The notes under the pieces were generated by a model. That model was not told the origin of the DNA. It did no database searches and saw only the letters and a program-made list of their open reading frames with translations. 64,000 nt of DNA from Adonisia turfae CCMR0081. GTDB taxonomy: Bacteria; Cyanobacteriota; Cyanobacteriia; Phormidesmidales; Phormidesmidaceae. Shown here piece after piece: positions 2,326 to 33,168 of this stretch (position 1 is its first letter; every line of letters begins with the position of its first letter). The stretch covers positions 1,516,047-1,580,046 of the forward strand of contig NZ_QXHD01000004.1 of the NCBI RefSeq assembly GCF_011009555.1, in the 5' to 3' direction. The position numbers and the translations under genes are program-made.

Positions 2326-3663
2326 TTATCCACGACCTTTAATACGCAACTCGTGCCAGCGGAGCCCAACTAACACTATACTCGTCAGTGTGAAGCCAGG
2401 CTCTTCCATAAGAGTAAAGATAAAACCATTAACGATGACATTGAGGACTAAGAAACGAGATACATCGTCTTTAGTAATTCTAGTTAAGGTAACAAACCAT
2501 AAATAGATGTAGCTGCCTAGACCTAAAAGACCTAAGTCTCCCCAGATACCGGCCCAGCCCCATAGGGGAGAGAAAAAACTTGAATCTAAATAATTCCCAC
2601 GCCACCTTGACCAAACTAAATCAGTGACCGGATGGGTCGTTGCACCCATGGGTCCAACAAGAGACCAATAGTCTCTGATCATCCAGCCTCCTATGCGACC
2701 AATGGTGTGCCCAGGCCCCAAACCAAAGAACCAGTTTAAGAATGAATTGTAGTGGTTGGGAATAACTCTAAAAGGGGTGGTTTTGAGAACGGTTGCATCG
2801 CCGTTAGGGCCATAGATATGGGGGCGAATCCAGCCTCTATAGGCGCTAAAAAAATCGACATTGTAAATACACCAATAGAAGGTGTACCCCAGTAGACCGG
2901 CTGCAATAATATATTGGAAGGCTACTTTGAAATCGGTGATTTTGCTAAAAATTAGACAGCCCCAGGCTAAAAATGCGACTAATATTACCTGTTTCGCATC
3001 AGCAAATAAGACCTGTGCCATCACTGCGGCAAGCACAGAAGTACGTATCCAAACGGGCATTGTCTTAGCACTGACGTAATAGTAAAGACCAAATACTAAG
3101 GATGCACTCGCCCCCACTACGTGACCACCGGAGGAGAGATAAAAAACACCTTGGATATTATCTTCTATGGTCATCCGAGTGTGGGCTAACAGACCTGTGG
3201 TTAAACCTACTTTCTGAAGCAAGGCTAGCCCCAGATGGATAGCTCCAAAACGAAGAATCCAGTTTTTGAATTGGTCTAAGGAGTCTTGTGTAAATGGAAC
3301 GGAAATAAGGGCGGCCAAAAAAATAAAAGGCTCTGAGATAATCATGAGCCCTAAGAAGACATTGATCAGGCCTGCGTTATTTAGTAAGGCACTGGCGGTT
3401 GCGATCGCAAACAATGCCACCAATCCAACAAGTAGAGCCTGTACAGTAGCCAACTGCCTGCGGGATTGATGCCGACTGCTCAACATCACTAGGCTGCAAG
3501 CCGCAGGTAGCACAATAAAGTGAACAAAATTGATCGGTGCTGGAGCCCCCATTGACTCAAGGAGTCTGGGAAAAAAAACCGTCGCAAATGAAATTAGTAA
3601 CAAGCGAGAGCTTGAAATGAAACCCGCAGGCGCTTTGGGACGAGGTAGAGTCTGAGTCTGCAT
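2326..3663 (-). CDS. O-antigen ligase/polymerase (Wzy)-like membrane protein
   Basis: This 445-residue polytopic protein has ten or more hydrophobic helices and a large loop at about residues 265-345, where Wzy and WaaL proteins carry their active site (for example PNHYNSFLNWFFGLGPGH). Such proteins polymerise lipid-linked repeat units on the outer face of the inner membrane. Its place, two bases after a glycosyltransferase and upstream of the exosortase, suits a polymerase for the polysaccharide made by this cluster. Sequence conservation in the family is low, so the ligase alternative cannot be excluded. Confidence 0.65.
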   Translation of the reverse strand: MQTQTLPRPKAPAGFISSSRLLLISFATVFFPRLLESMGAPAPINFVHFIVLPAACSLVMLSSRHQSRRQLATVQALLVGLVALFAIATASALLNNAGLINVFLGLMIISEPFIFLAALISVPFTQDSLDQFKNWILRFGAIHLGLALLQKVGLTTGLLAHTRMTIEDNIQGVFYLSSGGHVVGASASLVFGLYYYVSAKTMPVWIRTSVLAAVMAQVLFADAKQVILVAFLAWGCLIFSKITDFKVAFQYIIAAGLLGYTFYWCIYNVDFFSAYRGWIRPHIYGPNGDATVLKTTPFRVIPNHYNSFLNWFFGLGPGHTIGRIGGWMIRDYWSLVGPMGATTHPVTDLVWSRWRGNYLDSSFFSPLWGWAGIWGDLGLLGLGSYIYLWFVTLTRITKDDVSRFLVLNVIVNGFIFTLMEEPGFTLTSIVLVGLRWHELRIKGRG

Positions 3664-3665
3664 TG

Positions 3666-4868
3666 TTAGCGTAAAGTAACCGGTGTGGCCGATGGAGCCG
3701 ATGGAGAAACGGGCACAAGTTGGGAGTAAATGGCCATCAGCTGCGAATAGTTAGCGGTTGCTGTATAGTTGGCCTCAAACTCAGCACGAGCATTTTGACG
3801 CATCTGTCCCTGAGGTTCAGGATGGTCTAACATCCAATGCACCTGACGGGCTAGATCGTCAGGATTGCCAGGGGTGAAATGTAAACCAGTATGGCCAGAT
3901 TTAACAATTTCTGTGATGGCACCAATCTTAGAGGCAATCACAGGAGTACCCGTGGCAAATGCCTCGACAGCAACTCGACCAAAGGTTTCATACCACTTAG
4001 ATGGAAAGATCAAAAACTGAGCCTCCCCCATCAGCTGATGCACCTCAGCCATCGGTCTACGGCCCAGCCATTCTATGTGGGGCATCTGTTCAACTGCTGC
4101 GGTCACCAGTGTCGACAGTGGCCCATCCCCTACAACTTTGAGGGGTAACGGTGTTTTGAGCTGTTTCCAGGCGTCTAGCAAGGTATCCAGCCCTTTTTCC
4201 ACAGAAAGACGCCCCACATACAGAGCGTAACCGCCTTTGCCAGTACCCACCTGCGGCTCTGGGGCAACAAAGTTGGGTTTAACGACAATTTTGTCAGCAG
4301 GTAGTCCCCCCTCAATGAACTTTTGTCGCGCAAACTCTGTTAACGCAATATAGCAATCAACTTTATTTTTCCATGTGCCCATGGCTCGATGGGTGGAGAG
4401 CATGGCCGCAACTCCGGCACTGGCTACACGATTTTCTCGGTAACAGCCATGGACCATGCCCGGATAGGGAATTGGCTTACCGATACAGTCTTCACACACC
4501 TGTCCCTGGCGGAAGAACAGGCCGTTAGGACAGACAAGGCGATAGTTATGGAGAGTTTGAACAACAGGAATATTCTCAGCTTTAGCAGCGTAATAGATGG
4601 AGGGAGAAATCAGAGGGAAAAAGTTTTGCACATGCACAATATCGTAATGTTGTTGTGCCAGGCGCTTACGCACTGCGTTATAGGTAGTCTGTGACCACAC
4701 AGTTTGTGCTGCCAGGGATAACTTACTCACCTCAGCAATGCGGTCATTGGTTTCCTCATAGAGATCCACCTGGTGCCCCTGCTCTTGCAGTAGACCCATT
4801 TCAGCTTCGTAGCATTCTTCTTCGCCACCACGGATCTGGTAGCGATTGTGAACCCCTAGAATACGCAT
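3666..4868 (-). CDS. glycosyltransferase, GT-B fold (GT4 type)
   Basis: A 400-residue GT-B enzyme predicted to transfer a sugar from a nucleotide donor to the growing lipid-linked repeat unit in the cytosol. The N-terminal half opens with an acceptor-side motif, GVHNRYQIRGGEEE. The C-terminal donor half has VGRLSVEKGLDTLLDAW and the E-x7-E type element around FGRVAVEAFATGTPVIAS. Four cysteines in the N-terminal half (around VCPNGLFFRQGQVCEDCIGK) are seen in one branch of GT4 enzymes. The sugar specificity cannot be told. It is probably co-transcribed with the polymerase 2 bp downstream. Confidence 0.85.
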   Translation of the reverse strand: MRILGVHNRYQIRGGEEECYEAEMGLLQEQGHQVDLYEETNDRIAEVSKLSLAAQTVWSQTTYNAVRKRLAQQHYDIVHVQNFFPLISPSIYYAAKAENIPVVQTLHNYRLVCPNGLFFRQGQVCEDCIGKPIPYPGMVHGCYRENRVASAGVAAMLSTHRAMGTWKNKVDCYIALTEFARQKFIEGGLPADKIVVKPNFVAPEPQVGTGKGGYALYVGRLSVEKGLDTLLDAWKQLKTPLPLKVVGDGPLSTLVTAAVEQMPHIEWLGRRPMAEVHQLMGEAQFLIFPSKWYETFGRVAVEAFATGTPVIASKIGAITEIVKSGHTGLHFTPGNPDDLARQVHWMLDHPEPQGQMRQNARAEFEANYTATANYSQLMAIYSQLVPVSPSAPSATPVTLR

Positions 4869-4964: not shown

Positions 4965-6203
4965 TTACATACCTGGTGACCCAGCACAGAGTTCTTGATA
5001 CAGCTGACTTAGCTGTGACGCTTTTGCCTGCCAGCTATAGTGCTCACGCACTAGCTTTTTCCCCGCTTCACCCATAGTTTTCCGCAGGTCAGGATCCTGT
5101 GCCAGCTTAAGCATTGCCTGACTGAGGTCTTGGGTCGCTTGCTCTGGTGTATGGGCTGCGATTCTAAATCCAGTTTCATCGGTCACCTGGACCGCTGGAC
5201 CGCCTAAATCTAAGCAGAGAATCGGACGCCCTGCCGCCATCCCCTCTAAGCAGACCCAACCACCCGAATCATGCAGGCTAGGGTGTACCAACACGTGACT
5301 TTGAGCTAGCTTTTCCAGGGTTTCCTTACGGGGTAGCCGTCCCCAAAATTTGACTTTGTCGGCTACTCCCAGGTCCTTGGCTAGTGCCTGAAAGTTCTCC
5401 AGCTCCGGTCCCTCTCCCAAAATCCAATATTCAGCATTGGGCAAATTCGCTTTCGCAAACGCCTGAATACCCAGATAAAATCCTTTCCAATGGAGTAAAC
5501 GTCCCATGCTGATCAAGCGGAAGGGGCCAGTCTCTGGCAGGGGACAACTATTTAACTTTTCTATCTCTTCTGGAGCCAGACCAGACTCTGAAGCGATTTG
5601 CACATGGGATGCGCCCATTTTGCTTAGTTGTTTAGCCGTGTCATGGGTGGTTGCTCGTACAACAGCACTACGTTGCGCCGTTAGCCGGGTAAAGGGATCA
5701 ATTTCACCCATTTTATGGGCTAGCTTACGCAGGGTTTCATACTGTTTTGCTTTGTCGCTAAAGTCTTTGAAGAAACTCTGAGGAGCCTGTTCGCCACCGC
5801 CCACCGGCCCCCAAACAAAGGGAACAGGCAGTAGGGATAGCCAGCTAGGTGTTGAATAACGGACAAAGGTGACATGGTGAGCCACGTCAAAATTAATGTC
5901 TTGATGTAAGCGCCGGGCAACAAAGTAGGCTTGAATCTGCCACAGATAATAGTGAATTTGCATGGCACCCGATTGTCCCAGGCGCATGCTATCTTGCCAA
6001 AAAGGCAGCGTAAAGTAAACGAATTTCAGGTTGGGAATGGGGTTGCGAGCCAGCTCAGCTTCGATGGCCTCTTTGCTCTCATCAGGGCGAGTCAGCACCC
6101 AAACCTGATGGTGTTGCGCAACTTCTCGGGCAATATTCCAGCCCACACCAGGTTCTGAGCCCTTATTAGGCTCACAAGAGTAGGCAGAGATAAGAATTTT
6201 CAT
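4965..6203 (-). CDS. glycosyltransferase, GT4 type
   Basis: A 412-residue GT-B glycosyltransferase. The N-terminus carries ISAYSCEPNKGSEPGVGWN, a glycine-rich opening typical of one GT4 branch. The donor domain has MGRLLHWKGFYLGIQAF and the HDSGGWVCLEGMAAGRPI element that contacts the nucleotide sugar. Donor and acceptor are unknown. It lies in the same direction as its neighbours, 42 bp after the methyltransferase, and is expected to add one residue of the repeat unit. Confidence 0.85.
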   Translation of the reverse strand: MKILISAYSCEPNKGSEPGVGWNIAREVAQHHQVWVLTRPDESKEAIEAELARNPIPNLKFVYFTLPFWQDSMRLGQSGAMQIHYYLWQIQAYFVARRLHQDINFDVAHHVTFVRYSTPSWLSLLPVPFVWGPVGGGEQAPQSFFKDFSDKAKQYETLRKLAHKMGEIDPFTRLTAQRSAVVRATTHDTAKQLSKMGASHVQIASESGLAPEEIEKLNSCPLPETGPFRLISMGRLLHWKGFYLGIQAFAKANLPNAEYWILGEGPELENFQALAKDLGVADKVKFWGRLPRKETLEKLAQSHVLVHPSLHDSGGWVCLEGMAAGRPILCLDLGGPAVQVTDETGFRIAAHTPEQATQDLSQAMLKLAQDPDLRKTMGEAGKKLVREHYSWQAKASQLSQLYQELCAGSPGM

Positions 6204-6244: not shown

Positions 6245-6892
6245 CTATTCTTTGTCCGCAATTATGAGGTAACTACCATAAATATTGTGTATAGGAAAGT
6301 AATATCCTAAATAGCGAGTAACTTTACCGCTACCAAACAAACGAATATTTCTATATCCCATCATTTGAAGCTTGCATTTTAATGCATGTGGAAAATGTTG
6401 CGAAACATGCGCCTCGCCCAAAACACTCTCTTTTCGCAGTCTCTTTTTGTAGTCTTCAGGATTAGGAGTCGTTAACATTAATCGTCCCCCTATTTTTAAG
6501 ACTCGGAAAAATTCTCCCAGGGTTTTATCTACATCATTTGGATACAAATGCTCTATGAATTCACCAGCGACTACAACATCAAATGACCTATCACTCACAG
6601 GTATATCTGTAGATAGACCATAAAAAGTTTGGGCATAGATATTTTTGGATAGCCGATCTAATCGATCTTGAACGCAGTCTAAACCTGCAATCTTTAGAAG
6701 TGAATTACATTGCTTTAGAATGTGGCCTCCACGACCAGTGTTACAGCCAACATCAAGCACGGTTTCATACTTTTTTGAAAAAAACTTATAAAACTGTCTA
6801 TAGCGTTCTTCAGTGAATGGATCTGTTTCACTTGCTATCTGCTTGGCATTTAGTACCTCGTATTCCTGAACTGTCATAGGGTTAGCCTCCAC
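6245..6892 (-). CDS. class I SAM-dependent methyltransferase
   Basis: A 215-residue methyltransferase with Rossmann motif I (VLDVGCNTGRGG, residues 45-56) and a post-I acidic region (AGLDC). The stretch DVVVAGEFIEHLYPNDVDK is typical of the UbiE/type 11 group. In this setting it may O-methylate a sugar of the polysaccharide; that role is inferred from position only. An internal ATG at 6877 (residue 6, MTVQEYEVLN) is an equally good start. No other modifying methyltransferase is present in the cluster. Confidence 0.8.
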   Translation of the reverse strand: MEANPMTVQEYEVLNAKQIASETDPFTEERYRQFYKFFSKKYETVLDVGCNTGRGGHILKQCNSLLKIAGLDCVQDRLDRLSKNIYAQTFYGLSTDIPVSDRSFDVVVAGEFIEHLYPNDVDKTLGEFFRVLKIGGRLMLTTPNPEDYKKRLRKESVLGEAHVSQHFPHALKCKLQMMGYRNIRLFGSGKVTRYLGYYFPIHNIYGSYLIIADKE

Positions 6893-6930: not shown

Positions 6931-7812
6931 TTACCAAGCTAGACTCGTTTCATAACCGAGTTCAATGAGCAAATCCCCGGCAATTTTCTTAAATTCTGCC
7001 TTATGGTCTTCTTTGAAGTACTGTTGCCATCCTCCAATAGCACCTTTTCCACCTTTCTTAAATGTGTGAGATTCTTCTGGGTTCATGGCATAGGAACCAA
7101 ATTTAGCCTTGATTTCTTCAGAGGAAAGGTTGACCTGAAGATGATCCATAATTTGACCAATAAGGTGTAGCCGCTTGTCTTCAGAGCCACCCCCCCTTTC
7201 TCCCACCAGATCTTCAAACTTAACCGCCAGGGTTTGTGAATCCTGAAGCCAGCCATGCCAGCGTGAGAAGTCTTGAGCAATATTAGGCTGGGAAAGGTTT
7301 GAACCAAACGGTGAGCCGACAGGGACACCGACAATGGAGTTCATTAACTGCTGGTCGAAGTTAGATTGCTGCTGATAAATATCGTGCAAAAATATGCGTT
7401 TCTCTTTGGTTACCCAGCGAGCATGGGAAACCGCTACGTCTCTGAGATCGCGATAGATAAATAAAGGCTTGCAATGGTGCTCACCTAAGATGTCTAAAAT
7501 CTCTTGTGAATGCATTAGGTGCGATCGCACAATAGATTGATTAGGGGCAGACCCTAACTTCCATCGAATATGGTTAGGCGTGTTCATAATGCCGCAAAGG
7601 GCTTGAACAGAAATAATGTCATCCCATCGCTTGAGGCCAGGGGTTGAATAAAGAATCTGATACAGTAAGTGAGTGCCACTTTTAGGATAGGAATTACAGA
7701 TCACGAAATTCTTAGGGCGATTACCTGAAAGAGCTTTCGCTTTAAGCGTCCTAGTCAAAAAAACAGCATCTCTAGCATGTAAGCCTAGAACATTTCTGAG
7801 TTGATAGCTCAT
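6931..7812 (-). CDS. sulfotransferase (Sulfotransfer_1, cytosolic type)
   Basis: A 293-residue PAPS-dependent sulfotransferase that would place a sulfate ester on a sugar hydroxyl. The 5'-phosphosulfate loop is YPKSGTH at residues 42-48. The 3'-phosphate site is FIYRDLRDVAVSHAR, with its conserved Arg and Ser. The C-terminus has the KKGGKGAIGGW element matching the RKG-x-x-GDW-like PAPS clamp of this subfamily. It is one of eight sulfotransferases in this run and the only one of this loop type. The acceptor is unknown. Confidence 0.85.
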   Translation of the reverse strand: MSYQLRNVLGLHARDAVFLTRTLKAKALSGNRPKNFVICNSYPKSGTHLLYQILYSTPGLKRWDDIISVQALCGIMNTPNHIRWKLGSAPNQSIVRSHLMHSQEILDILGEHHCKPLFIYRDLRDVAVSHARWVTKEKRIFLHDIYQQQSNFDQQLMNSIVGVPVGSPFGSNLSQPNIAQDFSRWHGWLQDSQTLAVKFEDLVGERGGGSEDKRLHLIGQIMDHLQVNLSSEEIKAKFGSYAMNPEESHTFKKGGKGAIGGWQQYFKEDHKAEFKKIAGDLLIELGYETSLAW

Positions 7813-7829: not shown

Positions 7830-8972
7830 TTAAGCAATATTTGTTTCAGCAGCACTAGCTAATAGCGATTCATATATCTGAGCAATTTGCTCGGCGGTGT
7901 TTTTCCAAGTAAATTTCGCTGCGCGTGTTGTCCCCTTAGTTATCAGCTCACGTTTTACATCTGGATCTTTAAAGATTGCTTCTACTGATTTAGCAATACC
8001 ATTAATATCCAGAGGCTCCACAAGGATAGCGGCATCATCAACCACCTCTGGTAGTGAGGTGACATTGGACGCAATTACAGGCAGACCACAGGCCATTGCT
8101 TCTAAAACCGTGATCCCAAAACCTTCATATGTTGAAGGCGCGACTAATATGTCAGCTGCATTATAAATTTTGATCAAAGTCTCCTTGTCAGGTTTACCTA
8201 GATAAGATATACGACCATCAAGTTGATGTTCCGCAATAAATTTTTTCTGGTCATGGGTAAAGTCATCCCCTGCCTTCCAAAAGTGAATGGGGAATCCTTT
8301 AGTTTGCAACTGAGCCACAACCTTCAAAATTGTAATGATATTCTTGCGTGGGTTGTTAGAACCAACATTGAGTAAACAGCATGTTTCCGCAGGTATGTTT
8401 AAATCTTGACGAAAATGGCCCTCTGCCTGGGAAGTTATAGCCTGAAAAATATCGTCTACCCCGTTGGGAACAGTTTGGATTTTCGTTGCACCCACGTCCA
8501 AATACTTAATAATATCTTGGGCGGTATAGTCCGAAACTGAAACAATTCGATGGGCTTCACACATGCTGCGCAGTGAATATTTCCATGTGGCTAAACTTAA
8601 CCAAGGCATCAGAGCTCGATCACGAAATAACTCTGGATGGACTAGATTGATCAAATCGTGACAGGTAACAACAACAGGCACCTGGGCTGTTTTAAGCCAG
8701 TTCACGAGATAGCCATCACTGTGGTCAATAATATGAAAAATGTCGGACTCACAATTTTGTAAGCCTTTAGGATATTGCCAATATCTCTGGTGATATTTTT
8801 GTATGCCTTTGAGTAGAGAGTTAGTACGCTTGCCCTGAACAGGGTTATCAGGAAAATTTTCCACAATTTCCCAATTCGGTCGAACGGCTCTAAGTCCTTC
8901 CACCACGGCGTCGGCATACACATCCATACTAAAAGAAACGCCGGGAGAACGCCTTAATATTGTTATGCGCAT
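7830..8972 (-). CDS. glycosyltransferase, GT4 type
   Basis: A 380-residue GT-B enzyme. It opens with RSPGVSFSMDVYADAVVEGL, has NVGSNNPRKNIITILKVV at the start of the donor domain, and has the classic EGFGITVLEAMACGLPVIAS with the E-x7-E pair. The sequence most resembles mannosyl- or rhamnosyl-type GT4 enzymes, but that is impression only. It ends 18 bp before the sulfotransferase that follows, so the two are likely co-transcribed and may act on the same residue. Confidence 0.88.
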   Translation of the reverse strand: MRITILRRSPGVSFSMDVYADAVVEGLRAVRPNWEIVENFPDNPVQGKRTNSLLKGIQKYHQRYWQYPKGLQNCESDIFHIIDHSDGYLVNWLKTAQVPVVVTCHDLINLVHPELFRDRALMPWLSLATWKYSLRSMCEAHRIVSVSDYTAQDIIKYLDVGATKIQTVPNGVDDIFQAITSQAEGHFRQDLNIPAETCCLLNVGSNNPRKNIITILKVVAQLQTKGFPIHFWKAGDDFTHDQKKFIAEHQLDGRISYLGKPDKETLIKIYNAADILVAPSTYEGFGITVLEAMACGLPVIASNVTSLPEVVDDAAILVEPLDINGIAKSVEAIFKDPDVKRELITKGTTRAAKFTWKNTAEQIAQIYESLLASAAETNIA

Positions 8973-9029: not shown

Positions 9030-10277
9030 CTAAGACGAAACAGGATGTAAATTCAATTTTTGTCCAGTTTTTTGCCGCTGGATGCGCTCAATAACTGCTA
9101 AAAAGGCATTGACTTCGCAATTTAAGTCTTGATTAGCAAACACTTCGCGCGCACGTTGGCTATAGGTTTTGCGAGTTTGGGTACAGGTCAGCGAGAGGAT
9201 AGCCTTGGCAAGGGCATCCACATCCCCACAGGGGTAGACAAGACCGTTATAGTGGTGACGAACGGTATCGCTATAGCCCCAGTTGCCACAGCGATCGCTA
9301 ATAATGGCGGTACAACCACAGGCCATGGCTTCAGAAACCACCAGAGGATGGGGGTCTGACCATGAGCTAGCCACAAATACATCTAGAGCTGCATAGTATA
9401 GGGGCAGCTTACTTTGATTAATAAAGCCAACGTTGATCACCTCTCCATTTAACTCACTCAGTCGCTCATTAATGGCATCATTGAGTTCACCACCGCCTAG
9501 CATAATGCCTCGCACCCGTGGATCTTTGCGATGGGCTTGCACAACGGCATCGATGAACTCAAAGGGGTTTTTGCGCTCAATATATTTGCCAACAAAACTA
9601 TACAGAATCGTATCGTCATCCCAGGCTAGCTCTGCCCGAATTTTCTTGATCTCTTCTGGGTTTTGGGCCAGTGTCTGCTCGTAGCGATCGCGATCAACCG
9701 GATAACATCCCCGTACAATCTTGTCAGCGGAAACGCCATAGTGACGGAGATATATTTCATTGTGATCACCACTGGAGATCCAATGATCTACCAGCCCATA
9801 CATGGATGGATACAGTAAAGTAGTGGCCAGCTTTCTTAAGTAGCTAAAATGTGAGTCTGTAATAATTGTGGCATCATTTTGCATAATAATGGGAATGCCC
9901 TGCTGCTTACACAGCAAGATTGCCAGTCGATAGGAATAGGTGAAAAAGCTACTGACAAAGACAGCGTCAAAGTTTTTTGCCTTAAGCCTATTGATCAAGC
10001 CTGGAGTAAACAGTCCACGCTTAATCTTTGGGGCCACACTACCATTCCAATTCTTCAGATACTCATAGGTATAGCCACTGGTCAAATCCACGTCCCAAGC
10101 GGCTGTATTACCCACACCTTTAGCCCCTTGGGCCTGGTTTTCAGTACACAGATAAAAGGCTGAGACATCGACTCCTGGTTGAGCATTCAACTGACGCCAG
10201 AGAGGAGCATGGTGCTGAGTCGGATGAGTAAAAACAACGCCTAAGCGAAAGTTATTAGTTGACATGTGTCTAACCAC
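9030..10277 (-). CDS. glycosyltransferase, GT4 type
   Basis: A 415-residue GT-B glycosyltransferase. FTHPTQHHAPLWRQL lies near the N-terminus, VGKYIERKNPFEFIDAV opens the donor half, and VVSEAMACGCTAIIS is the nucleotide-sugar site. A start at residue 5 (10265, MSTNNFRLG) is at least as likely as the first ATG. Upstream, 10278-10658 is a 381-bp gap without a gene. Confidence 0.85.
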   Translation of the reverse strand: MVRHMSTNNFRLGVVFTHPTQHHAPLWRQLNAQPGVDVSAFYLCTENQAQGAKGVGNTAAWDVDLTSGYTYEYLKNWNGSVAPKIKRGLFTPGLINRLKAKNFDAVFVSSFFTYSYRLAILLCKQQGIPIIMQNDATIITDSHFSYLRKLATTLLYPSMYGLVDHWISSGDHNEIYLRHYGVSADKIVRGCYPVDRDRYEQTLAQNPEEIKKIRAELAWDDDTILYSFVGKYIERKNPFEFIDAVVQAHRKDPRVRGIMLGGGELNDAINERLSELNGEVINVGFINQSKLPLYYAALDVFVASSWSDPHPLVVSEAMACGCTAIISDRCGNWGYSDTVRHHYNGLVYPCGDVDALAKAILSLTCTQTRKTYSQRAREVFANQDLNCEVNAFLAVIERIQRQKTGQKLNLHPVSS

Positions 10278-12627: not shown

Positions 12628-12676
12628 AACGTTAGTCCTTATTTTCAATTCATTTAATTTAAACAAAAAATATCCT

Positions 12677-13651: not shown

Positions 13652-13717
13652 TTGCTCTATACATCATTCAAAGGGACAGTAAAACTGGTCATAATGCGAT
13701 CTCATTTTGATTAAAAA

Positions 13718-14668: not shown

Positions 14669-14729
14669 GGTAGGTAAGAAAAGCAGAGGATCAAAGTAAA
14701 AATTTATATTTAAGAAAAGATCTGAACTC

Positions 14730-21933: not shown

Positions 21934-22251
21934 AATGATTCGTTGGTTTTATGGATAACCGTATTTTTTCTTGTAAGGAATCAAACAATCAGATAATTGT
22001 TTTATGAATAAAGAAAATTTATTTCTCCTAGGTTAGCTCCATACTATTAAGTATATTTAAAATAGCCCTTATTCCTATATTGAAATTAGAAGGCTTACTA
22101 CGCTCTTGAGCAAAAAAACATTTATGTTAATGATCAAGAGATTAAGTCATAAAATTGTATTTAGAAAGAGTAAATTGACTTCAAAATAACTCTATCCCTC
22201 AAATTTTAACGTAATGGAACAGTCTGATTAAACAGGTTAATTTTGGCATTT
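21934..22251. other. A/T-rich intergenic gap
   Basis: No coding signal is seen on either strand in this 318-bp stretch. It is strongly A/T-rich, and no clear promoter or hairpin could be picked out. Confidence 0.4.
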
Positions 22252-23190: not shown

Positions 23191-23364
23191 AATGAATTCC
23201 TATACTGTATAAATGTCTCTCATCAATGCCTTAGAAGCTTAGCTAGTTGAAATTATTTTGACTAGAATACAATTTAGCTAGAGCTTCCTAGCGATAAAAA
23301 GTATATAGAGATAAGAGAGTATTTCAAGCATCAATTCTATTAAAACTAATGCTTGAAATAAATG

Positions 23365-24324: not shown

Positions 24325-24362
24325 AGGGTTAAACTCCTAACGTACTAATTTTCAATAAAATC

Positions 24363-25244
24363 TTAGCGACTTACAGTTTCTGGACATTTCAACCAATGGT
24401 CTAAATTTCTTTCAGTTAATAACTCAAGACTTTTTATTTCAGGTTCGAAAAGAATTTTGAGCCTTTGGAGCTGTTTATCTTTTAGCGGTATTTTATATTC
24501 CCTTTTATGAATTGTTTTTGGCTCAATTTTAACCGTGTCATCAACTTCTAAAAAAGAAAATATCTGCGACAGTGTCTCATTATGTTTTTCCTGTAGATCT
24601 TCTGATAAAAGAATCAAAATCTGATCCCTTGGGAAGAATCTAAGGAGGCGGCGTATTTGGGATGAGTAAAAGCTTCGATCAAGATAGGAAAAAGTTCTAT
24701 TTTGGTCTGAGATAAATCTCTTCATTTTTGACGTTCCTGTCTTGACCCGTGAATAATCAAGTTCGGTAAAAATTGCTTCAGAGAAATCTCTATGCTCGTT
24801 ACCTCTGGAAGCTGCCATGTTCCAATGGGAATAAGCTCTAGTGATAGGGTTTCTTAGCAACAGAATGATTTTTGCATCTGGATTATAGGTATGAATCCTT
24901 GCTGGTGCTTTTTCATTCCACATATAGCAAGGGCATGCTTCGCCAACAACTTTAGTAGATGGCGAAGGTTGGAAAAATGCATGATATTTTCGATAAGCTG
25001 GAAAAATAGAATGCAAATTTATAAAAAATCTATCATTGTCGAAAAAATGCACTTCCTTTAAGGAATAGGGCATACAAATCTCTGGATGTTTAGTAAGAAA
25101 ATCATGCAGAGCTGTTGTTCCTCCTTTTTGTGTTCCTGCTATAAAAAAGGTCACTAATGGTTTGCCAACAGTAGCGGATCTACAACGCTTGACTAACTTT
25201 GAAACAATTTTTTCTGTATAAGTTACTTCACTAACGGTATGCAT
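24363..25244 (-). CDS. sulfotransferase (heparan-sulfate type)
   Basis: A 293-residue enzyme with PAPS loop FFIAGTQKGGTTALHDFL, then CMPYSLKEVHFFDND, and the 3'-phosphate region KIILLLRNPITRAYSHWNM. The pattern matches the NDST-like branch of sulfotransferases acting on polysaccharides. It is the first sulfotransferase after the ABC exporter in the direction of transcription (42 bp away). Confidence 0.87.
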   Translation of the reverse strand: MHTVSEVTYTEKIVSKLVKRCRSATVGKPLVTFFIAGTQKGGTTALHDFLTKHPEICMPYSLKEVHFFDNDRFFINLHSIFPAYRKYHAFFQPSPSTKVVGEACPCYMWNEKAPARIHTYNPDAKIILLLRNPITRAYSHWNMAASRGNEHRDFSEAIFTELDYSRVKTGTSKMKRFISDQNRTFSYLDRSFYSSQIRRLLRFFPRDQILILLSEDLQEKHNETLSQIFSFLEVDDTVKIEPKTIHKREYKIPLKDKQLQRLKILFEPEIKSLELLTERNLDHWLKCPETVSR

Positions 25245-25286
25245 GCTGATTTCCCAATATTGATAACTTTCAGATTAATTAGCGCT

Positions 25287-27137
25287 TTAATTAGCGCTAC
25301 CTATTTCAAATTGCATTTGGTGATATTTCCAAAGCTTGCCGCGCTCTTTGAGTAAACTCTGATAATTTCCTTGCTCTACAATTCGCCCTTTCTCTAAGAC
25401 GACAACTTTATCCGCATTAGAAATTGTTGATAGTCGATGGGCAATAGCAATTACAGTGCGCCCTTTTGATAACCTCTCGATTGATTCCTGAATCAGTTTT
25501 TCAGTTAATGAGTCAAGAGCACTTGTTGCCTCATCCAGAATTAAAATTTCGGGATCTCGCAACAGAGCACGCGCGATCGCAATCCTCTGACGCTGTCCTC
25601 CTGATAATCGGACACCCCGATTACCCAAGATCGTTTCAAATCCCTTCGGTAATTCTTGAATGAATTCCAGGGCATTAGATGCTTTCGCCGCTTCGATAAT
25701 ATCCGTGTCGCTAACATTTTCAACACCGTACACTAAGTTTTCGGCCACTGTTGTATTGAAGATAAACGTATCCTGGCTGACGATAGCCATTCGCTTTCTA
25801 AACGAATTTATTTTTAATTCGTTTAGATCTACGCCATCAATCAAAATTCGACCGCGCGAAGGGTCATAAAAACGTGGAATCAAATCTGCCAACGTAGTCT
25901 TCCCAGCCCCGGAAGCACCTACCAGCGCCGTCGTTTCTCCTCGCTTAATGGAGAGCGTAATGTCGTGGAGTATCGGCTCACCAGGATTATAGGAGAAGTC
26001 AACCGAAACAAAATCGATTGAGCGCTCTAACCGATGAAATTCTTGATGGCCGTCTTGGAAATAGGGCTTATCATCGCGTCGGAGCAGGTCATTGACTGAA
26101 TGTAAGGCACCTTGCGATGAGAGAAAACCAACACGGATGCCGTTTAAGGATGAAACCAGTGGTGTGGTACGAATCAGTACAAATAAGAATGTCAGTAGCT
26201 CTGCTGCTTTGAGTTGTCCCCTAGCAATGAGTAAGCTAAAGGATATGACAACCATGCCCACCAGGAGGGTAACGCCCAGACCTTCAATTAAGGGTCTTAC
26301 TAATGCGGAAAAATTAATGACTGCCAGCTGAGAATCATGAATTTGCTGGGCAGCTGCATAAAAGCGCTTTCGTTCAAAGTCCTGTGTGCCTGAGGCGTGA
26401 ACGGTGCGGATGCCGTTAATAAATGCAAGCGCTCGGTTAGTAAAGGCTTTGTTAGCAGCCGGGACTGCAAAGCTAGCCTCTCTCACCTTGGCCGTTAGAG
26501 AGGTTAATCCAACGGAGATTAGAGAAAAGACAAGGGTGGAGATTAAAAATAGCTGCCAGGATAACAGCAACATGGACGTTAGATAGGCCAAAACCTTAGA
26601 GCCTTGGACAACAGACGTTGCAAGAACATTAAATGCCTGCTGAACCTGATTCACTTCCCCCCGGATAGTGCTCATCAAAGCTCCAGGACTCACGGTGGTG
26701 TAGTAGCTGAGTCGCAAGCTTTCTAGCTGATCAAAAATTCGACCACGTAAGCGATTGACAAGAGTCAAAGAGGACTTCTTAGCATAGATAGTGCTTAAAT
26801 AATCAAAGCAACCCCGTAACCAAACTCCCACCAGCAATAGACCAGACAGTCTGTAGATCCGTTCTGTTGCAGAAGCCTGGGTTGCCAAAAAAATGGTATC
26901 AAACCACTGAATTCCTGTTTGAATAGGAGGCTCTTCAGGGTTAGTGAGTCCTTGTAGAAAGGAGGCAATAAATCCAACCGTTACCCCTTCAAAGGCAGCT
27001 GCAATCAGAGCAAAGAGGATTGCTAGAAAGACGATTCTTCGAAAATATTTAAATTCCCTAAGAATTAAATGATGTTCCTTCCAGATCTGAGTTGTTTTGA
27101 TCAGTGTACGAAGGGCACCAGGTAGCTTTATTTTCAT
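25287..27137 (-). CDS. ABC exporter, permease fused to ATPase (MsbA/HepA/PglK-like)
   Basis: A 616-residue half-transporter. The N-terminal membrane domain has about six helices (residues 35-345). The ATPase domain has Walker A GASGAGKTT (407-415), signature LSGGQ (511-515), Walker B ILILDEA (531-537) and the H-loop His567. Homodimers of this architecture flip lipid-linked oligosaccharides or lipids. No Wzx-type flippase is seen in the window, so this is the best candidate for moving the repeat unit across the membrane. HepA of heterocyst envelope polysaccharide is a known cyanobacterial relative. Confidence 0.85.
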   Translation of the reverse strand: MKIKLPGALRTLIKTTQIWKEHHLILREFKYFRRIVFLAILFALIAAAFEGVTVGFIASFLQGLTNPEEPPIQTGIQWFDTIFLATQASATERIYRLSGLLLVGVWLRGCFDYLSTIYAKKSSLTLVNRLRGRIFDQLESLRLSYYTTVSPGALMSTIRGEVNQVQQAFNVLATSVVQGSKVLAYLTSMLLLSWQLFLISTLVFSLISVGLTSLTAKVREASFAVPAANKAFTNRALAFINGIRTVHASGTQDFERKRFYAAAQQIHDSQLAVINFSALVRPLIEGLGVTLLVGMVVISFSLLIARGQLKAAELLTFLFVLIRTTPLVSSLNGIRVGFLSSQGALHSVNDLLRRDDKPYFQDGHQEFHRLERSIDFVSVDFSYNPGEPILHDITLSIKRGETTALVGASGAGKTTLADLIPRFYDPSRGRILIDGVDLNELKINSFRKRMAIVSQDTFIFNTTVAENLVYGVENVSDTDIIEAAKASNALEFIQELPKGFETILGNRGVRLSGGQRQRIAIARALLRDPEILILDEATSALDSLTEKLIQESIERLSKGRTVIAIAHRLSTISNADKVVVLEKGRIVEQGNYQSLLKERGKLWKYHQMQFEIGSAN

Positions 27138-27463: not shown

Positions 27464-28333
27464 CTATCGTCTACCATGCATCCCAAACGCAACGTTTACT
27501 TGAGGGCAACCAAATCTAGGCTCTAATCCTAACTTCACCTTAACCAGTTGCTTAAAGGCCAACAACAAAAATAAGGGGATTGTTTTGGCATAGCGCTTCC
27601 AAAGTCTGCCTGGCTCTTGTACTAAGCGATATAGCCATTCCAGGCCGTTCTTTTGCACCCAAACAGGGGCCCACTTCTTCTCACCAGCAAAAATCGGAAA
27701 TACACCACCTATACCCACCATAACTGACTGGATCCGGCCTTTGTGATGATGCATCCACCACTCCTGCTTAGGACAGCCCAACGATATCAGTACCAAGCCA
27801 GCTCCACTATCGTTGATCTCCTTAACTAAGGCCGCATCTTCATCACGGGTGAGTGGTCTAAAGGGTGGCGATACCATACCTGCAATCTTTAAGTTAGGAT
27901 ACTCTCGCTTGAGCCGTTGTTCCATACTCCACAGCACATCAGGAGTAGAGCCTAAGAAAAAGATGCTGATATTTTCTTTAGATGCTTTTTCGCACAGGCT
28001 AAGAAAAATATCCATTCCTGCGACTCGATCTTGCTTGCGCTTTCTCAGGCGACTGGTTAGCCATACTAGGGGCATACCATCCGGCGTGAGCATATCGGCT
28101 CTATGTAAGACCCAGGCAAAGCCTTCATTGTATTTGGCCTCAACTAACATGTGGACATTTGCCACACACACGACTTTACTGAGTCGCTGATGTGCCCAAC
28201 CTAACATCGTATTAATTTGGGCCTCAAAGGGTTCTGCTGTAACTGGAAAACCAATCACACTCTGCTTTTCCAGTTTTTTTGTGCTTCTCTTCCAAAGACC
28301 AGTAAGGTTAGACTTAGTAGTCGAATACAGCAT
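27464..28333 (-). CDS. WecG/TagA/CpsF family glycosyltransferase (GT26)
   Basis: A 289-residue member of the WecG/TagA family, which adds an N-acetylmannosamine-type or related sugar to a lipid-linked acceptor at the membrane. Visible signatures are HRADMLTPDGMPLVWLTSR, FFLGSTPDVLWSMEQRL and ISLGCPKQEWWMHHHK, plus the amphipathic C-terminal tail. About 40 extra N-terminal residues precede FPVTAEPFEAQINTML, where the family normally starts, so the true start may be further in. It is the first minus-strand gene of the cluster, facing the long divergent control region. Confidence 0.85.
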   Translation of the reverse strand: MLYSTTKSNLTGLWKRSTKKLEKQSVIGFPVTAEPFEAQINTMLGWAHQRLSKVVCVANVHMLVEAKYNEGFAWVLHRADMLTPDGMPLVWLTSRLRKRKQDRVAGMDIFLSLCEKASKENISIFFLGSTPDVLWSMEQRLKREYPNLKIAGMVSPPFRPLTRDEDAALVKEINDSGAGLVLISLGCPKQEWWMHHHKGRIQSVMVGIGGVFPIFAGEKKWAPVWVQKNGLEWLYRLVQEPGRLWKRYAKTIPLFLLLAFKQLVKVKLGLEPRFGCPQVNVAFGMHGRR

Positions 28334-29441
28334 AATGATTCTCGATTTTTGTTGAGGGCGGATTACAAAAACTTCTGTTTCTAATGCGATCGCACAAAAT
28401 CGAATAAACCTATGAATCTTTATTGATAAATCTGCTTTCTTAAAATCAAATTTATCAAACTTGCACTACTGTAAGTACATTAAGAGAACTAAATGATTTA
28501 AGAAGGTTTATTCGCAGTGATGCACTAGAGCATCTACATGTAATAAAAGTCACTGCTGCGTTACTGCTGCCTTGAACGTAAGACTGACGAAGTTTGGAAG
28601 ATTATCTTCAGAACACCCTTAATCCAAGCATTTTATCCATTTACTTAGATAAATCTGTTTAGTCTAAAAGACTGATTTAGACTAAAAGACCTATGGAAAA
28701 ACTTCCTTGGTAGCGTAAACCCTGAGCCCCGTGTAAATCTTTACCAAAGATTTAGGTAGATAATACACAGAACAACACTCTATTCAATGGCTGGTAGCAA
28801 CCTCAGGAGAATTATCTGTTAGTCATGTTTAATTAACGCGATAAAACTCAGAGACCCTGAAACGAATATGGTAGACCTTCTAGCCGTTGTAGATTTGGGG
28901 TTGGGTACACGAAGATAAACCTGCCGATTCATCCTACGTTACATATTGACAAATTCCTTGCTAATAGGTGTCGTCATATGATAAAAACACATTTTCTCAG
29001 TGGGAAAGCAATCTATACTTCATAATTGCTTTATAAACACACGTTTTTATTTCATAAACACCCTTGCTTTGCAGCCAGTATAGACAAAAAAAAATGATTT
29101 GTCATTAGCGGCAGTGGTCATCTATTTAAGTTGCACAATGGATCTCTACAAATCGATTGTTCAGTTTTACGGGCATTTTTATAACTACGGCTATTGTCTT
29201 GATGAGACCTATTTACTTATATAGATAACAACAGGCAATAATGTACGGCAGATCAAGGGTTACGACGATTCTGCTGCCAGTAAATATGTGAAATTAATGG
29301 CAGCGATTTCAAAATTAAACGGATTGGTGTAGATTCACACAGAAAACTGATACACCCCTAAAGGCTTATAGCTTATGGCCTGAATACAGTGTGTTCGAAG
29401 CTTGTGTTCTAACTTCTCACATTGCAATCTGTTTGATACCT
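28334..29441. promoter_or_regulatory. 1.1-kb divergent control region
   Basis: No convincing gene lies here. It separates the minus-strand sugar genes from the plus-strand export genes. Inverted repeats are TTGATAAAT/ATTTATCAA (28423-28458) and AGTCTAAA/TTTAGACT (28661-28683). The latter overlaps a direct repeat, CTAAAAGAC (28664-28672, 28682-28690). Several A/T-rich tracts near 29000-29100 could hold promoters. A long leader for one or both operons is likely. Confidence 0.5.
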
Positions 29442-30929
29442 ATGTTTAATCGTCGCCTGTCCCAGCAAAACCTAGCCCTACTCTGTTTTGCACTCTGTGC
29501 AATGGGTATCTCTACCTCTCCAGCAAATGCTCAGCTTCAACCATTGCCAGGGTTGGATCGTAATAGAGAAGTCCCCACAAGCCGCAGTGCTGCACCCACA
29601 TCAGAGGCCATTGCACCACCATCTGAAACATCTTATACATTAGGTGCTGGTGATGTAGTTCGTGTCGATATCTTTAGAGTGCCGCAATACAGTGGCGAGA
29701 GTGAAGTCCTTGTGGATGGCACTCTTAACTTACCCCTCGTGGGGCCTATAAACGTAGCGGGTCTGACGTTAGGCGAAACCACAGAGTTGTTGTCTAGTCA
29801 GTACGGTCAGTATCTCAAGCGTCCCTTAATTACCCTCAGTCTATTAAATAGACGACCTCTACAAGTTGGTATTTCAGGTGAAATCAACAGCCCTGGCTCC
29901 TACACCCTGACTCAAACCGGGACCCAGGCCCCCAGATTAAGCCAGTTACTAGAACGGGCTGGGGGGGTGACGCAAGTTGCGGCTATTCGGGACATTCAGA
30001 TCCAGCGCCCTGGACGTAATGGAGAACAACAGACATTCACCGTTGATCTATGGGAGCTGCTAGAAACTGGTAACTCCCAGTACGATATATCATTAAGAGA
30101 TGGAGATTCTATTTTTATCCCCACAGGTACCCTCTCTCTACAAGAAGCCTCTTTTTTAGCAGATGCTAGTTTTGCCGCCAGCGTTAGTCAGCCCATTAAT
30201 GTGGCTGTGATTGGTGAGGTTTATCGTCCAGGTCCATATACACTGCAAGGAGGTCGGGCTAGCACTGGAGATGCTGGTGTTCCGGGTGCCTCTTCTAGCT
30301 CGTCAACCCCCACTACGGTGACGCGAGCGCTACAATTGGCTGGCGGCATCAAACCCAGAGCCGATATTCGCAAGGTGCAAGTTGTGCGCCCGACCCGTTC
30401 TGGTGAGACCCAGGTTATTGATGTTGATTTGTGGAAATTGCTGGAAGTAGGGGATATCTATCAAGATGTCGTGCTGCAGCCTAACGATACTATCTTTGTT
30501 CCAGTCGCAACAGCTTTGAACCCTGCTGAAGTACCGACAGTTGCAGGTTCCAGCCTATCACCTAACTCAATTCGCGTTAACGTTGTCGGGGAAGTAAGCC
30601 GATCAGGAGTCATTGAGTTACCCCCTGACACCTCTCTCAGCCAAGCGATTCTTGCAGCTGGTGGGTTTAACCGTCGTGCCAGAAAAGGTGAAGCGGAATT
30701 GATCAGACTCAACGCGGATGGCACCGTTGCCCGTGAAACGATTCCGGTGGACTTTGCTCAAGCAATTAATGACGAGAATAATCCTATCTTGCAAAATAAC
30801 GATGTCGTTATCGTTAATCCCAATGCTCTAGCTCGTGTAACCGATGATATTGGAGCTGTACTAGAGCCAGTTGGACAAGTGATTAGGAATGTCTTCTCTC
30901 CCCTAAGATTCCTGGATATACTCGATTAG
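29442..30929 (+). CDS. polysaccharide export outer-membrane protein (Wza-like)
   Basis: A 495-residue periplasmic/outer-membrane export channel subunit. The ATG at 29442 is chosen because it yields a normal signal peptide (NRRLSQQNL...TSPANAQ); the frame is open from a GTG at 29391. After the signal come a Poly_export domain (YTLGAGDVVRVDIF, about residues 55-140) and three SLBB-type repeats (around PLQVGISGEINSPGSY, INVAVIGEVYRPGPY and IRVNVVGEVSRSGVIEL). No lipobox cysteine is visible, unlike E. coli Wza. It is followed 76 bp later by the co-polymerase gene. Confidence 0.87.
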   Translation: MFNRRLSQQNLALLCFALCAMGISTSPANAQLQPLPGLDRNREVPTSRSAAPTSEAIAPPSETSYTLGAGDVVRVDIFRVPQYSGESEVLVDGTLNLPLVGPINVAGLTLGETTELLSSQYGQYLKRPLITLSLLNRRPLQVGISGEINSPGSYTLTQTGTQAPRLSQLLERAGGVTQVAAIRDIQIQRPGRNGEQQTFTVDLWELLETGNSQYDISLRDGDSIFIPTGTLSLQEASFLADASFAASVSQPINVAVIGEVYRPGPYTLQGGRASTGDAGVPGASSSSSTPTTVTRALQLAGGIKPRADIRKVQVVRPTRSGETQVIDVDLWKLLEVGDIYQDVVLQPNDTIFVPVATALNPAEVPTVAGSSLSPNSIRVNVVGEVSRSGVIELPPDTSLSQAILAAGGFNRRARKGEAELIRLNADGTVARETIPVDFAQAINDENNPILQNNDVVIVNPNALARVTDDIGAVLEPVGQVIRNVFSPLRFLDILD

Positions 30930-31005
30930 GCAGAGATAGTCAAGAACTCTGAATTTTCACTTTTAATCTTGCACAATTCACCTCTATTATAATTATCTTC
31001 TACCT

Positions 31006-33168
31006 ATGAGAGCCGATACCCTCCCCTCTTCACCCCCATGGACCCCTCAAGATCGTCTACCAACGACAGAAGATGAAGGTGGTCTAAATGTTGGCGGTCT
31101 CCTTAAAACACTACAGCGTAAGTGGTGGATCATCGCTGGCATGACAGTTGTGACCATGGGCTTGGCTGCGGTTAAAGTGATAACTACCAAACCCGTCTAT
31201 AATGGCAGTTTTGAAATTTTAGTACAGGCTCAAAGTACTGAGACCGAGGTCATCTCGAACGTTCCTGAAACAATCACAAGCCAAGAACAAGTGGCCGTTG
31301 ATGGAGACCTACTCAAGATTTTAAGAGGGCCTAAGGTCTTACAACCTGTTATTGAAGGCATTAGAGATCGATATCCTAATTTCTGTCCTCCAGCAGCCAC
31401 GCAGTCAGAACCATTGGAGCTCAGTTATGATCCTTGCTACCAGCTGGTTACTAGTCGTTTAAAGGTAAAGCAGCTCGGCAAGAATTCAGACATCATTCAG
31501 GTAACATTGCAAGATCCTGATCCACAGACTGTTCGGGTTATCTTAGACCTAGTGTCTCAAGCCTATCTTGCCTATAGCTTAGAGTCAAAACAGGCTGATA
31601 TTCGCCGAGCAATTGAGTTTGTTGAGAAAAAGCTACCTGATCTGGTCAATAAGGTAGAGTCTTTGCAAGATCAGCTGCAATCACTGCGTTTAGAGCACAA
31701 TATTATTGATCCCGATTCCCGTGGAGCTCAACTATCAGGGCAGGTAAATGCCTTCTCTAAACAACAGCTTGACCTGCAAATACAGCTGGAGCAAAATCGG
31801 GCGACCTACGATAGTCTCCGCGGCCAGCTGAGTGGGCCTCAAGAACAGGCGTCTTCCTCTGCATTAGCTCAAAACCCCAGATATCAGACGCTACTTAATC
31901 AGTTGTTGGATCTAGATACCAAAATTGCTGAGGCCTCCACACTTTATCTAGACAGTAGCCCTGATATGGAAGTGCTCAAAGAGCAACGTCAGAATTTATT
32001 AGCGCTACTGCAACAACAGGGGGAACAATCCCAGAGAGATCTGATCAGTCAGCTGCAAGAGCTAGAATCACAGGAACGGGCATTGAATCAAACATTGCAG
32101 GGGTTGAGCTCAGGTGTTGATGACCTTTCAGGAATTTCGAGAGACTATTTAGAAATTCAACGGGAGCTAGGCATTGCCACAGAAAACCTGAATCAGTTTT
32201 TAGCAAAGCAAGCGGCTTTAGAAATTGATGAGGCTCAGCGAGAAATTCCCTGGGAAATTGTCACCCCGCCAACACAACCCAGCTCCCAGGCTGTGAGCAT
32301 GGTGCAGAATTTGTTACTGGGCGGCACCCTGGGATTATTAGTGGGTTCGATCATGGCCCTCTTGATGGATAAATCATCCGGGGTTCTGTATTCAGATAAA
32401 GAAATTCAACGGGTCATACAATTGCCTATCTTAGGCAAGATCCCCACGCCTCAACTGGTTGAAAAAGATATTCTAGAACCTGTCAAAGCGTTACAGTTAT
32501 CTGTCAATAAGTCTTCTGTAGGCGATGCCCAAGCGAAAACGTCTTTAAGCAACGGGTCGGCATCTTACACTGAGGATCCATTTATGGAGGCGTTTCGCTC
32601 CCTTTACACTAACCTGAGACTCAGCAGTGTAGAGCAACCATTAACGTCGGTCGTGGTTAGCTCTGTGATGGATAATGAGGGTAAATCAATTGCTGCCATT
32701 CACTTGGCTGAAGCAGCTGCCTTGATGGGGCAACGGGTACTGCTGGTGGATACTAATCTACGTAATCCTAAGATTCACAGCTATCTTAAATTACCCCATG
32801 ATGCAGGTCTCACTGATCTGGCTTCGATTGATCCTAGTTCCATTACCAAAAATACGTTTCTCCATGAACCTATTGATGGGCTTAAGGTTCTCTGTGCCGG
32901 AACAAAAGGTCACGATGCGGGCCATATCTTAACAACTAAGCGTGTTCAAGGCCTACTTCAACAGTTGAAAACCAAATTTGACTTAGTTGTATTCGATGCA
33001 CCATCCTTGCTGGGTCAATCCGATGCATATCTGGTTGCTGAGCAAGCAGATGGCATGTTAATTGTTACGAACCCTGGTCAGATTAAGCAAAATCTAATCA
33101 ACCAGGCTCTGGATCAACTGCGGATTGCCAATATTAATGTGTTTGGTATGGCTGTCCGAGAAAACTAA
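31006..33168 (+). CDS. polysaccharide co-polymerase with BY-kinase-like domain (Wzc-like)
   Basis: A 720-residue inner-membrane protein of the PCP-2a class. It has a Wzz domain with helices near residues 40-58 and 432-452, a periplasmic coiled-coil region (about 195-400) and a cytosolic P-loop domain starting near EDPFMEAFRSLYTNL. Walker A is unusual (SSVMDNEGKSI instead of a P-G-E-G-K-S-T form). Walker A' is LLVDTNLRNP and Walker B is LVVFDAPSLL. The protein ends INVFGMAVREN, with no tyrosine-rich tail, so autophosphorylation as in Wzc is doubtful. It probably sets chain length and couples to the Wza-like channel. Confidence 0.85.
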   Translation: MRADTLPSSPPWTPQDRLPTTEDEGGLNVGGLLKTLQRKWWIIAGMTVVTMGLAAVKVITTKPVYNGSFEILVQAQSTETEVISNVPETITSQEQVAVDGDLLKILRGPKVLQPVIEGIRDRYPNFCPPAATQSEPLELSYDPCYQLVTSRLKVKQLGKNSDIIQVTLQDPDPQTVRVILDLVSQAYLAYSLESKQADIRRAIEFVEKKLPDLVNKVESLQDQLQSLRLEHNIIDPDSRGAQLSGQVNAFSKQQLDLQIQLEQNRATYDSLRGQLSGPQEQASSSALAQNPRYQTLLNQLLDLDTKIAEASTLYLDSSPDMEVLKEQRQNLLALLQQQGEQSQRDLISQLQELESQERALNQTLQGLSSGVDDLSGISRDYLEIQRELGIATENLNQFLAKQAALEIDEAQREIPWEIVTPPTQPSSQAVSMVQNLLLGGTLGLLVGSIMALLMDKSSGVLYSDKEIQRVIQLPILGKIPTPQLVEKDILEPVKALQLSVNKSSVGDAQAKTSLSNGSASYTEDPFMEAFRSLYTNLRLSSVEQPLTSVVVSSVMDNEGKSIAAIHLAEAAALMGQRVLLVDTNLRNPKIHSYLKLPHDAGLTDLASIDPSSITKNTFLHEPIDGLKVLCAGTKGHDAGHILTTKRVQGLLQQLKTKFDLVVFDAPSLLGQSDAYLVAEQADGMLIVTNPGQIKQNLINQALDQLRIANINVFGMAVREN

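Follow-up and report, generated by a model that had tools for sequence, protein, structure and literature searches.

A stretch of 64,000 nucleotides from the cyanobacterium Adonisia turfae CCMR0081 (contig NZ_QXHD01000004.1, positions 1,516,047 to 1,580,046; the whole stretch is called the window below) contains a large polysaccharide locus. From its gene content we regard it with good confidence as a nearly complete HepA/Wzy-type system for making a sulfated capsule or exopolysaccharide (EPS), with an exchangeable core. Twenty-four genes on one strand run from 28333 down to 1312 with intergenic gaps of -91 to 381 bp and every frame open, and this single co-directional run encloses all eight sulfotransferases (STs) together with 12 glycosyltransferases (GTs). 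The centre of the locus, 11.7 kb in length, differs sharply from that of the syntenic locus in Leptolyngbya sp. PCC 7375 (genome G162 in our collection), while its flanks are nearly identical (Table 1).

An earlier sequence-only reading of the window had listed eight STs, twelve GTs, an ABC exporter and Wza/Wzc-like export genes, and this gene list is borne out: all eight STs score above Pfam cut-offs and keep both motif patterns described below, 11 of the 12 GTs do likewise with their Pfam models and the remaining one (23365-24324) is weak, and the exporter (25287-27137), Wza (29391-30929) and Wzc (31006-33168) have clear profile matches. What was overlooked is the exosortase, the PTPA-CTERM protein, the identity of the exporter as HepA, the swapped core and a proposed primer that lies beyond the window.

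Sulfotransferases and the swapped core

At gathering cut-offs, seven STs were recognised by PF00685 and/or PF13469 and the one at 16923-17708 by PF03567. Regular expressions for the 5'-phosphosulfate-loop and the 3'-phosphate site found both patterns intact in eight of eight, and through these sites the enzymes presumably bind 3'-phosphoadenosine-5'-phosphosulfate (PAPS). The genome has one strong-scoring copy of adenosine-5'-phosphosulfate kinase. The closest pair of STs within the locus over a long stretch shares 33% identity over 225 aa. In a tree of 65 rows (frames longer than 200 aa, with the STs of loci L086, L098, L148, L161 and L165 omitted as repeats of genomes already included), whose branches are long and deep joins unsure, the eight STs form eight separate lineages, which would fit enzymes for different acceptor sites. 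Recent tandem duplication of the STs is ruled out by this tree. ST1, ST2, ST5, ST6 and ST7 each pair with an ST from the PCC 7375 locus and ST3 falls in a supported group with STs of that locus, six lineages being closest to STs of PCC 7375 and of other loci of the same type; ST4 clusters with STs of genomes G243 and G082, and ST8 has no partner and sits next to the ST2 group. A ninth ST (45604-46605), with a long branch in the tree, lies outside the locus between urea-transport genes and mscL. Elsewhere, three frames of 612, 615 and 658 aa with two ST-domain matches each may be double STs (G109:C44:11685-13205, G342:C93:4806-6323 and G082:C83:55961-57565).

The sequence-only reading had also held that few bacterial loci carry so many STs, and within Cyanobacteriia, to which our comparison is confined, this is supported. 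Cluster size was taken as the count of PF13469 domains that begin inside a 25-kb span, every candidate being scored in 19 cyanobacterial genomes; these are mostly ST-rich, having mostly been picked for high counts in a first look at the class with PF00685 (matches in 240 of 388 genomes, about six candidates scored per genome, used only to choose genomes), and genome G269 was picked for its locus. The maximum of six domains is shared by the window (eight STs in all) and PCC 7375 (seven in all), G269 has five and the remaining genomes four or fewer, so that the three richest clusters belong to one locus type. All these counts are lower bounds because PF13469 misses two of the eight window STs, and genomes split into many contigs are undercounted. 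For 13 genomes the maxima were obtained after joining fragments of the same gene manually and omitting most contigs with single or distant matches, and the 6 others were read by eye.

Compared by blastn, the window and PCC 7375 are 97.3% identical at 1151-6203 and 96.0% identical both at 6932-13624 and at 25287-46297; since the last block takes in urease-accessory and urea-transport genes, about 96% looks like the background. Only two blocks of the core are alignable at E 1e-10, namely 14028-15596 (68%) and 17991-21895 (74%). The right edge of the core is the stop codon of hepA and the left edge the start of the GT2 gene at 12677-13651, and GC content is 0.38 in the core, 0.41 at 6932-13624 and 0.46-0.47 in the outer flanks. 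For 7 of the 11 core proteins a reciprocal partner exists in the core of PCC 7375, at 43-88% identity and in largely the same order; ST8 has a non-reciprocal match only (33%), and ST4 and the GTs at 22252-23190 and 23365-24324 have none. The place of ST4 is taken in PCC 7375 by an ST belonging with the ST3 lineage in the tree. Outside the core, the only methyltransferase of the locus (6245-6892) is missing from the PCC 7375 locus, where about 50 bp correspond to 6204-6931. Exchange by recombination near gene borders would be the simplest reading of this pattern.

A wider view comes from the window's family, in which HepA scores above cut-off in 19 genomes out of 63. With profiles made from the window genes we mapped 22 stretches around HepA matches as well as the window, and HepA occurs together with the Wzy-like gene in 9 of these 23: G000 (the window), G162, G269, G169, G071, G082, G148, G236 and G203, with 8, 7, 6, 1, 0, 2, 0, 0 and 2 STs in that order. 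An exosortase like that of the window stands beside the Wzy-like gene in six of the nine (not in G169, G082 or G203). A partial stretch on contig 130 of G223 has at least three STs, and the matching record L165 holds polymerase, exosortase, Wzc, Wza and GT26. Across these sister loci the ends form a conserved frame and the interior is variable. Between HepA and the Wzy-like gene of G148, G236 and G071, Pfam searches of unlabelled frames gave no ST; two polysaccharide pyruvyltransferases are found there in each of G148 and G236 and a branching enzyme in G071, and elsewhere in their genomes G148 and G236 carry at least three and four PF00685 matches. Among such ST-less loci is that of Nodosilinea sp. 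FACHB-131, a genome with STs at other places. A rule of sulfate or pyruvate was considered and dropped: G169 has one ST and one pyruvyltransferase, and among 80 named relatives of the locus (see next section) a pyruvyltransferase occurs only in L096 and L097, the same contigs as G148 and G236. Because G169 has both and the named loci add no new case, the pattern stays an anecdote. GT number does not seem simply to track ST number (12 GTs with eight STs in the window, 12 with none in G236), so that backbones needing about as many genes may or may not receive sulfates.

Probable polymerase, exporter and proposed primer

The Wzy-like polymerase proposed by the sequence-only reading is a candidate by its predicted fold, which fits a ligase as well as a polymerase. 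The gene at 2326-3663 encodes a 445-aa membrane protein with no match in Pfam (E up to 5) or NCBIfam (E up to 0.001), and a profile search of solved sequences gave a single chance-level match (E 0.51). A tblastn search against plasmids gave no match. Of 109 relatives that turned up in the genome collection, 80 were kept, all cyanobacterial by title; in the four frames before the Wzy-like gene, on the same strand, at least two GT4 genes occur in 60 of these 80 named loci and at least one in 68. The AlphaFold2 model, built from 69 of 70 aligned sequences (L110 was dropped), has a pLDDT of 93.2, and its only match in the PDB with E below 0.001 is the O-antigen ligase WaaL (7tpg; E 1.2e-4, TM-scores 0.51/0.55, 10% identity). 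As WaaL and Wzy are held to share one fold, this match supports a polymerase or a ligase without telling them apart. The stretch GxGPGHxxxR (G314-R323) is invariant in the family alignment and is a candidate active-site loop.

If the protein were a WaaL/PglL-like ligase or O-oligosaccharyltransferase, the product would be a sulfated oligosaccharide on lipid A or on exosortase-sorted proteins and no free polymer would be made, for which the WaaL match as the sole significant one speaks, together with the cyanoexosortase C and PTPA-CTERM protein that adjoin 2326-3663. We consider this quite unlikely, however: Wza and Wzc, which are typical of long-chain export, accompany HepA and the Wzy-like protein in seven of the nine mapped stretches, and Pfam scans recognised no other polymerase candidate in the locus. 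The exporter scores 981 bits with the HepA model NF045513 against 431 with MsbA and 229 with PglK, and Pfam scans of 1312-33168 matched no Wzx flippase family, the HepA-family ABC exporter being present instead. HepA takes its NCBIfam name from heterocyst formation, and presumably serves in the deposition of heterocyst envelope polysaccharide (HEP). It scores above cut-off in 9 of 11 named genomes with this wzy family, in five of which, presumably heterocyst formers, wzy and HepA are both on contig 1 (e.g. Fischerella PCC 9431) about 1 Mb or more apart, whereas the window has them in one locus; the two are thus not obligate partners, and the window locus is not tied to the heterocyst HepA. Such separation might suggest that HepA exports the finished chain by an ABC-dependent pathway and that the Wzy-fold protein has another role. 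Yet wzy and hepA share one locus in the nine mapped stretches, in seven of them with wza and wzc, and half-transporters of MsbA/PglK type act as flippases for lipid-linked glycans, so this explanation too seems unlikely.

It is less probable still that the STs, all or some, act on lipids or small molecules as mere neighbours of the GTs. Distant solved relatives of ST1 and ST5 are indeed estrogen, protein-tyrosine and CurM sulfotransferases, and STs of rhizobia and mycobacteria act on lipo-oligosaccharides according to the available part of PMC8205485; but all eight lie inside the co-directional run with 12 GTs, and their lineages turn up again in other polysaccharide loci, in several cases at corresponding positions.

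Several points nevertheless weigh against a sulfated polymer made by the HepA/Wzy route. WaaL is a ligase, and the predicted fold alone is thus no proof of a polymerase; the flippase role of HepA is by analogy, because the locus lacks Wzx; and the primer lies outside the window, split from the locus by a lasso-peptide-like cluster. Among the nine stretches, Wza, Wzc and GT26 were not seen in G269 and G082. An ST is near the Wzy-like gene in only 17 of the 80 named relatives within the DNA examined, hence sulfation is no fixed property of the wzy locus. The swap rests on one genome pair, and the genome is listed with 5.12% contamination; the locus itself sits on a 7.69-Mb contig with syntenic flanks.

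The proposed primer is a sugar transferase 9 kb left of the window (Bac_transf match at C11:1506589-1507149, C11 being the contig of the window; the genome has five such matches). Its identity is 98% to the transferase that flanks the PCC 7375 locus on the corresponding side, 62-63% to those that G148, G236 and G203 have between HepA and GT26, 65% to the one located 12 kb away from HepA in G269, and 69% over 201 aa to XssP, the synechan primer; once it is included, the pathway would have a starter. Between primer and exosortase lies the cluster just mentioned (L166:11190-18759, G000:C11), with a PqqD-like frame, a protease-like frame, asparagine synthase, HPr-kinase-like, ABC and NTP_transf_5 genes, of which the lasso, PqqD and protease labels are our presumption. 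Homologues of its asparagine synthase (40-97%) occur near the Wzy-like gene in 9 of the 80 named loci. Cyanoexosortase C (1312-2241) is probably part of the locus; of the five PTPA-CTERM signals in the genome, two are close by, one being that of 359-1036 and the other, at C11:1503409, preceding the window by about 12.6 kb.

From the gene content (Table 1) we infer an order of steps, their substrates and sulfation itself as follows. The sugar-phosphate transferase left of the window would start the chain on a lipid carrier, the WecG-type (GT26) enzyme would add the second sugar and the other GTs would build the repeat. The eight STs, presumably cytoplasmic, would transfer sulfates from PAPS onto the lipid-linked repeat, which HepA may then flip and the Wzy/WaaL-fold protein polymerise, with Wzc setting chain length and Wza exporting the polymer. 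Cyanoexosortase C would process PTPA-CTERM proteins, which may keep the polymer attached to the cell surface. Exchange of the central genes between lineages would alter how many sulfates there are and probably where they sit.

Table 1. Features of the locus and its surroundings (window positions, except where a locus record is named; percentages are protein identities unless blastn is stated)
Feature	Position	Strand	Basis
PTPA-CTERM sorting-signal protein, likely cyanoexosortase C substrate	359..1036	+	NF033465 48.6 bits, cut-off 29
Cyanoexosortase C (CrtC/XrtC)	1312..2241	-	NF033464 396 bits, cut-off 225
Wzy/WaaL-fold membrane protein, probable polymerase	2326..3663	-	AlphaFold2 model; WaaL match; GT4 neighbours
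GT4 glycosyltransferase (frame)	3666..4868	-	PF00534; 99% identical in PCC 7375
GT4 glycosyltransferase (frame)	4965..6203	-	PF00534; 99% in PCC 7375
S-adenosylmethionine (SAM) methyltransferase	6245..6892	-	PF08241; not in PCC 7375 locus
ST1	6931..7812	-	PF00685 37.6 bits; motifs; own clade with G162, G269, G169, G223, L160, L114
GT4 glycosyltransferase	7830..8972	-	PF00534
GT4 glycosyltransferase	9030..10277	-	PF00534
GT2 glycosyltransferase	10659..11696	-	PF00535
ST2	11734..12666	-	PF13469 69.9 bits; motifs
GT2 glycosyltransferase, left edge of swapped core	12677..13651	-	PF00535; 92% identical in PCC 7375
Swapped core	13625..25286	.	differs from PCC 7375; flanks 96-97% identical (blastn, E 1e-10)
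GT2 glycosyltransferase (core)	13718..14668	-	PF00535
ST3 (core)	14730..15608	-	PF00685 64.1 bits; 37% identical to XssA
GT4 glycosyltransferase (core)	15672..16913	-	PF00534
ST4, PF03567 type (core)	16923..17708	-	PF03567 32.5 bits, cut-off 22; motifs
GT4 glycosyltransferase (core)	17777..19042	-	PF00534 37.5 bits
ST5 (core)	18952..19911	-	PF13469 148.6 bits; 27% identical to XssE
ST6 (core)	19901..20875	-	PF13469 104.4 bits
ST7 (core)	21043..21933	-	PF13469 47.8 bits
GT92/GT2-like glycosyltransferase (core)	22252..23190	-	PF13704 34.8, PF01697 30.5 bits; no PCC 7375 locus match
Weak GT2-like glycosyltransferase (core)	23365..24324	-	PF00535 19.8 bits, below cut-off 23.3
ST8 (core)	24363..25244	-	PF00685 59.0 bits
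HepA-family ABC exporter, proposed flippase for lipid-linked repeat	25287..27137	-	NF045513 981 bits, cut-off 725
WecG/TagA/CpsF (GT26) glycosyltransferase, proposed second sugar	27464..28333	-	PF03808 209 bits; 31% to XssN
Wza/outer-membrane polysaccharide export (OPX) protein	29391..30929	+	PF02563, SLBB domains
Wzc/polysaccharide co-polymerase (PCP) with kinase-like domain	31006..33168	+	PF02706 33.3 bits; 24% to XssK
Pyruvyltransferases of ST-less sister loci	L070:9178-10263, L070:17006-17875, L073:7786-8871, L073:15574-16722		Pfam

Known systems and other features of the window

The sequence-only reading had pointed to synechan, and comparison of gene content with its locus (xss, plasmid pSYSM of Synechocystis sp. 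PCC 6803) makes the likeness apt. We assigned the Xss names to 17 annotated genes of pSYSM from their order and products, and their proteins were searched by blastp at E 1e-3 against 27 locus and 7 left-flank proteins (34). Both loci have STs among GTs, a Wzc-type PCP, a GT26 enzyme and a priming transferase: XssA matches ST3 over 183 aa, XssE matches ST5, XssN the WecG-type GT and XssK Wzc, at the identities given in Table 1, and XssP the left-flank transferase; xss also holds an exosortase-system-associated gene. However, xss as described in the available part of PMC8205485 has two STs, the Wzx flippase XssH and the regulators XssQRS in the cluster, and is without OPX, whereas the window has eight STs, HepA and OPX in the locus. 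XssF, the Wzy of xss, is unrelated to the window's Wzy-like family (profile E 0.19, below inclusion, 17 proteins searched), and XssQ, XssR and XssS have no match among the 34 proteins compared. The same part of that source gives sugars and sulfate near 1:1:1:5:2 for synechan, from 8 GTs and 2 STs; applied to the window, this rule would give, as a guess by analogy, about 12-13 sugars with up to eight sulfates. It also states that deletion of xssE, one of the two STs, did not substantially alter EPS and bloom formation, and that ST-bearing polysaccharide clusters of both Wzx/Wzy and ABC types are known in cyanobacteria. The xss cluster has been transferred to S. elongatus PCC 7942 (PMC13125312). 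The window locus resembles that of synechan in its logic and differs from it in the proposed flippase, the probable polymerase and the regulation.

STs are also part of the polysaccharide clusters for the sulfated capsules of Vibrio sp. KMM 8419 and of Cobetia marina KMM 1449, with sulfated polymers determined, but the available parts of PMC11641403 and PMC11766843 describe a Kps-type ABC pathway and PAPS genes in the cluster, and name three ST genes in the Vibrio strain, one of them assigned to O-antigen. Exosortase/PEP-CTERM systems, such as cyanoexosortase B of Nostoc punctiforme, also stand beside EPS genes and are proposed to hold EPS to the cell (PMC12188702, available part); the window differs in having cyanoexosortase C with PTPA-CTERM. 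The term 'PTPA-CTERM' was not found in the open literature searched, nor was a description of this locus found in titles and abstract openings of the open literature on such loci.

Right of the locus, four other features were observed. A CAP domain is fused to RTX calcium-binding repeats at 35001-36140, and a perfect 14-bp tandem repeat of 2.6 copies, CTCTTGTTTCTAAA, lies at 39137-39173 between ureG-like and urea-binding-type protein genes. The gene at 43202-44455 encodes an ABC ATPase of the urea-transporter type whose C-terminal part gives a DUF533/TerB-like match. At 51181-54317, a MerR-CbiC fusion regulator is divergent from a P-type ATPase, a pair that we take to resemble the cobalt-efflux pair of Synechocystis.

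Capsule switching as a possible meaning

The conserved frame and variable interior lead us to a tentative proposal, which falls somewhat short of probable: that cyanobacteria switch capsules, a frame of primer, HepA, Wzy, Wza, Wzc and exosortase taking exchangeable cores by recombination, which would reset the charge of the coat from many sulfates (six to eight STs) to few or none. In the core of two close ST-less relatives, pyruvyltransferases stand in place of the STs. If true, this would be like the serotype switching of pathogens, with the sulfation pattern as the variable trait. That the core is swapped while its flanks stay nearly identical suggests a variability of cyanobacterial coats that may be like that of pathogen capsules, and such variation would bear on resistance to phages and grazers and on the production of sulfated polymers. 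Judging from the literature, bacterial polysaccharide-sulfating enzymes with known positions seem to be few. Eight ST lineages in one locus, together with sister loci that lack some of them, may serve as a natural knock-out series, and the polymers made by the window strain, by Leptolyngbya sp. PCC 7375 and by Nodosilinea nodulosa PCC 7104, once compared, could show which enzyme places which sulfate.

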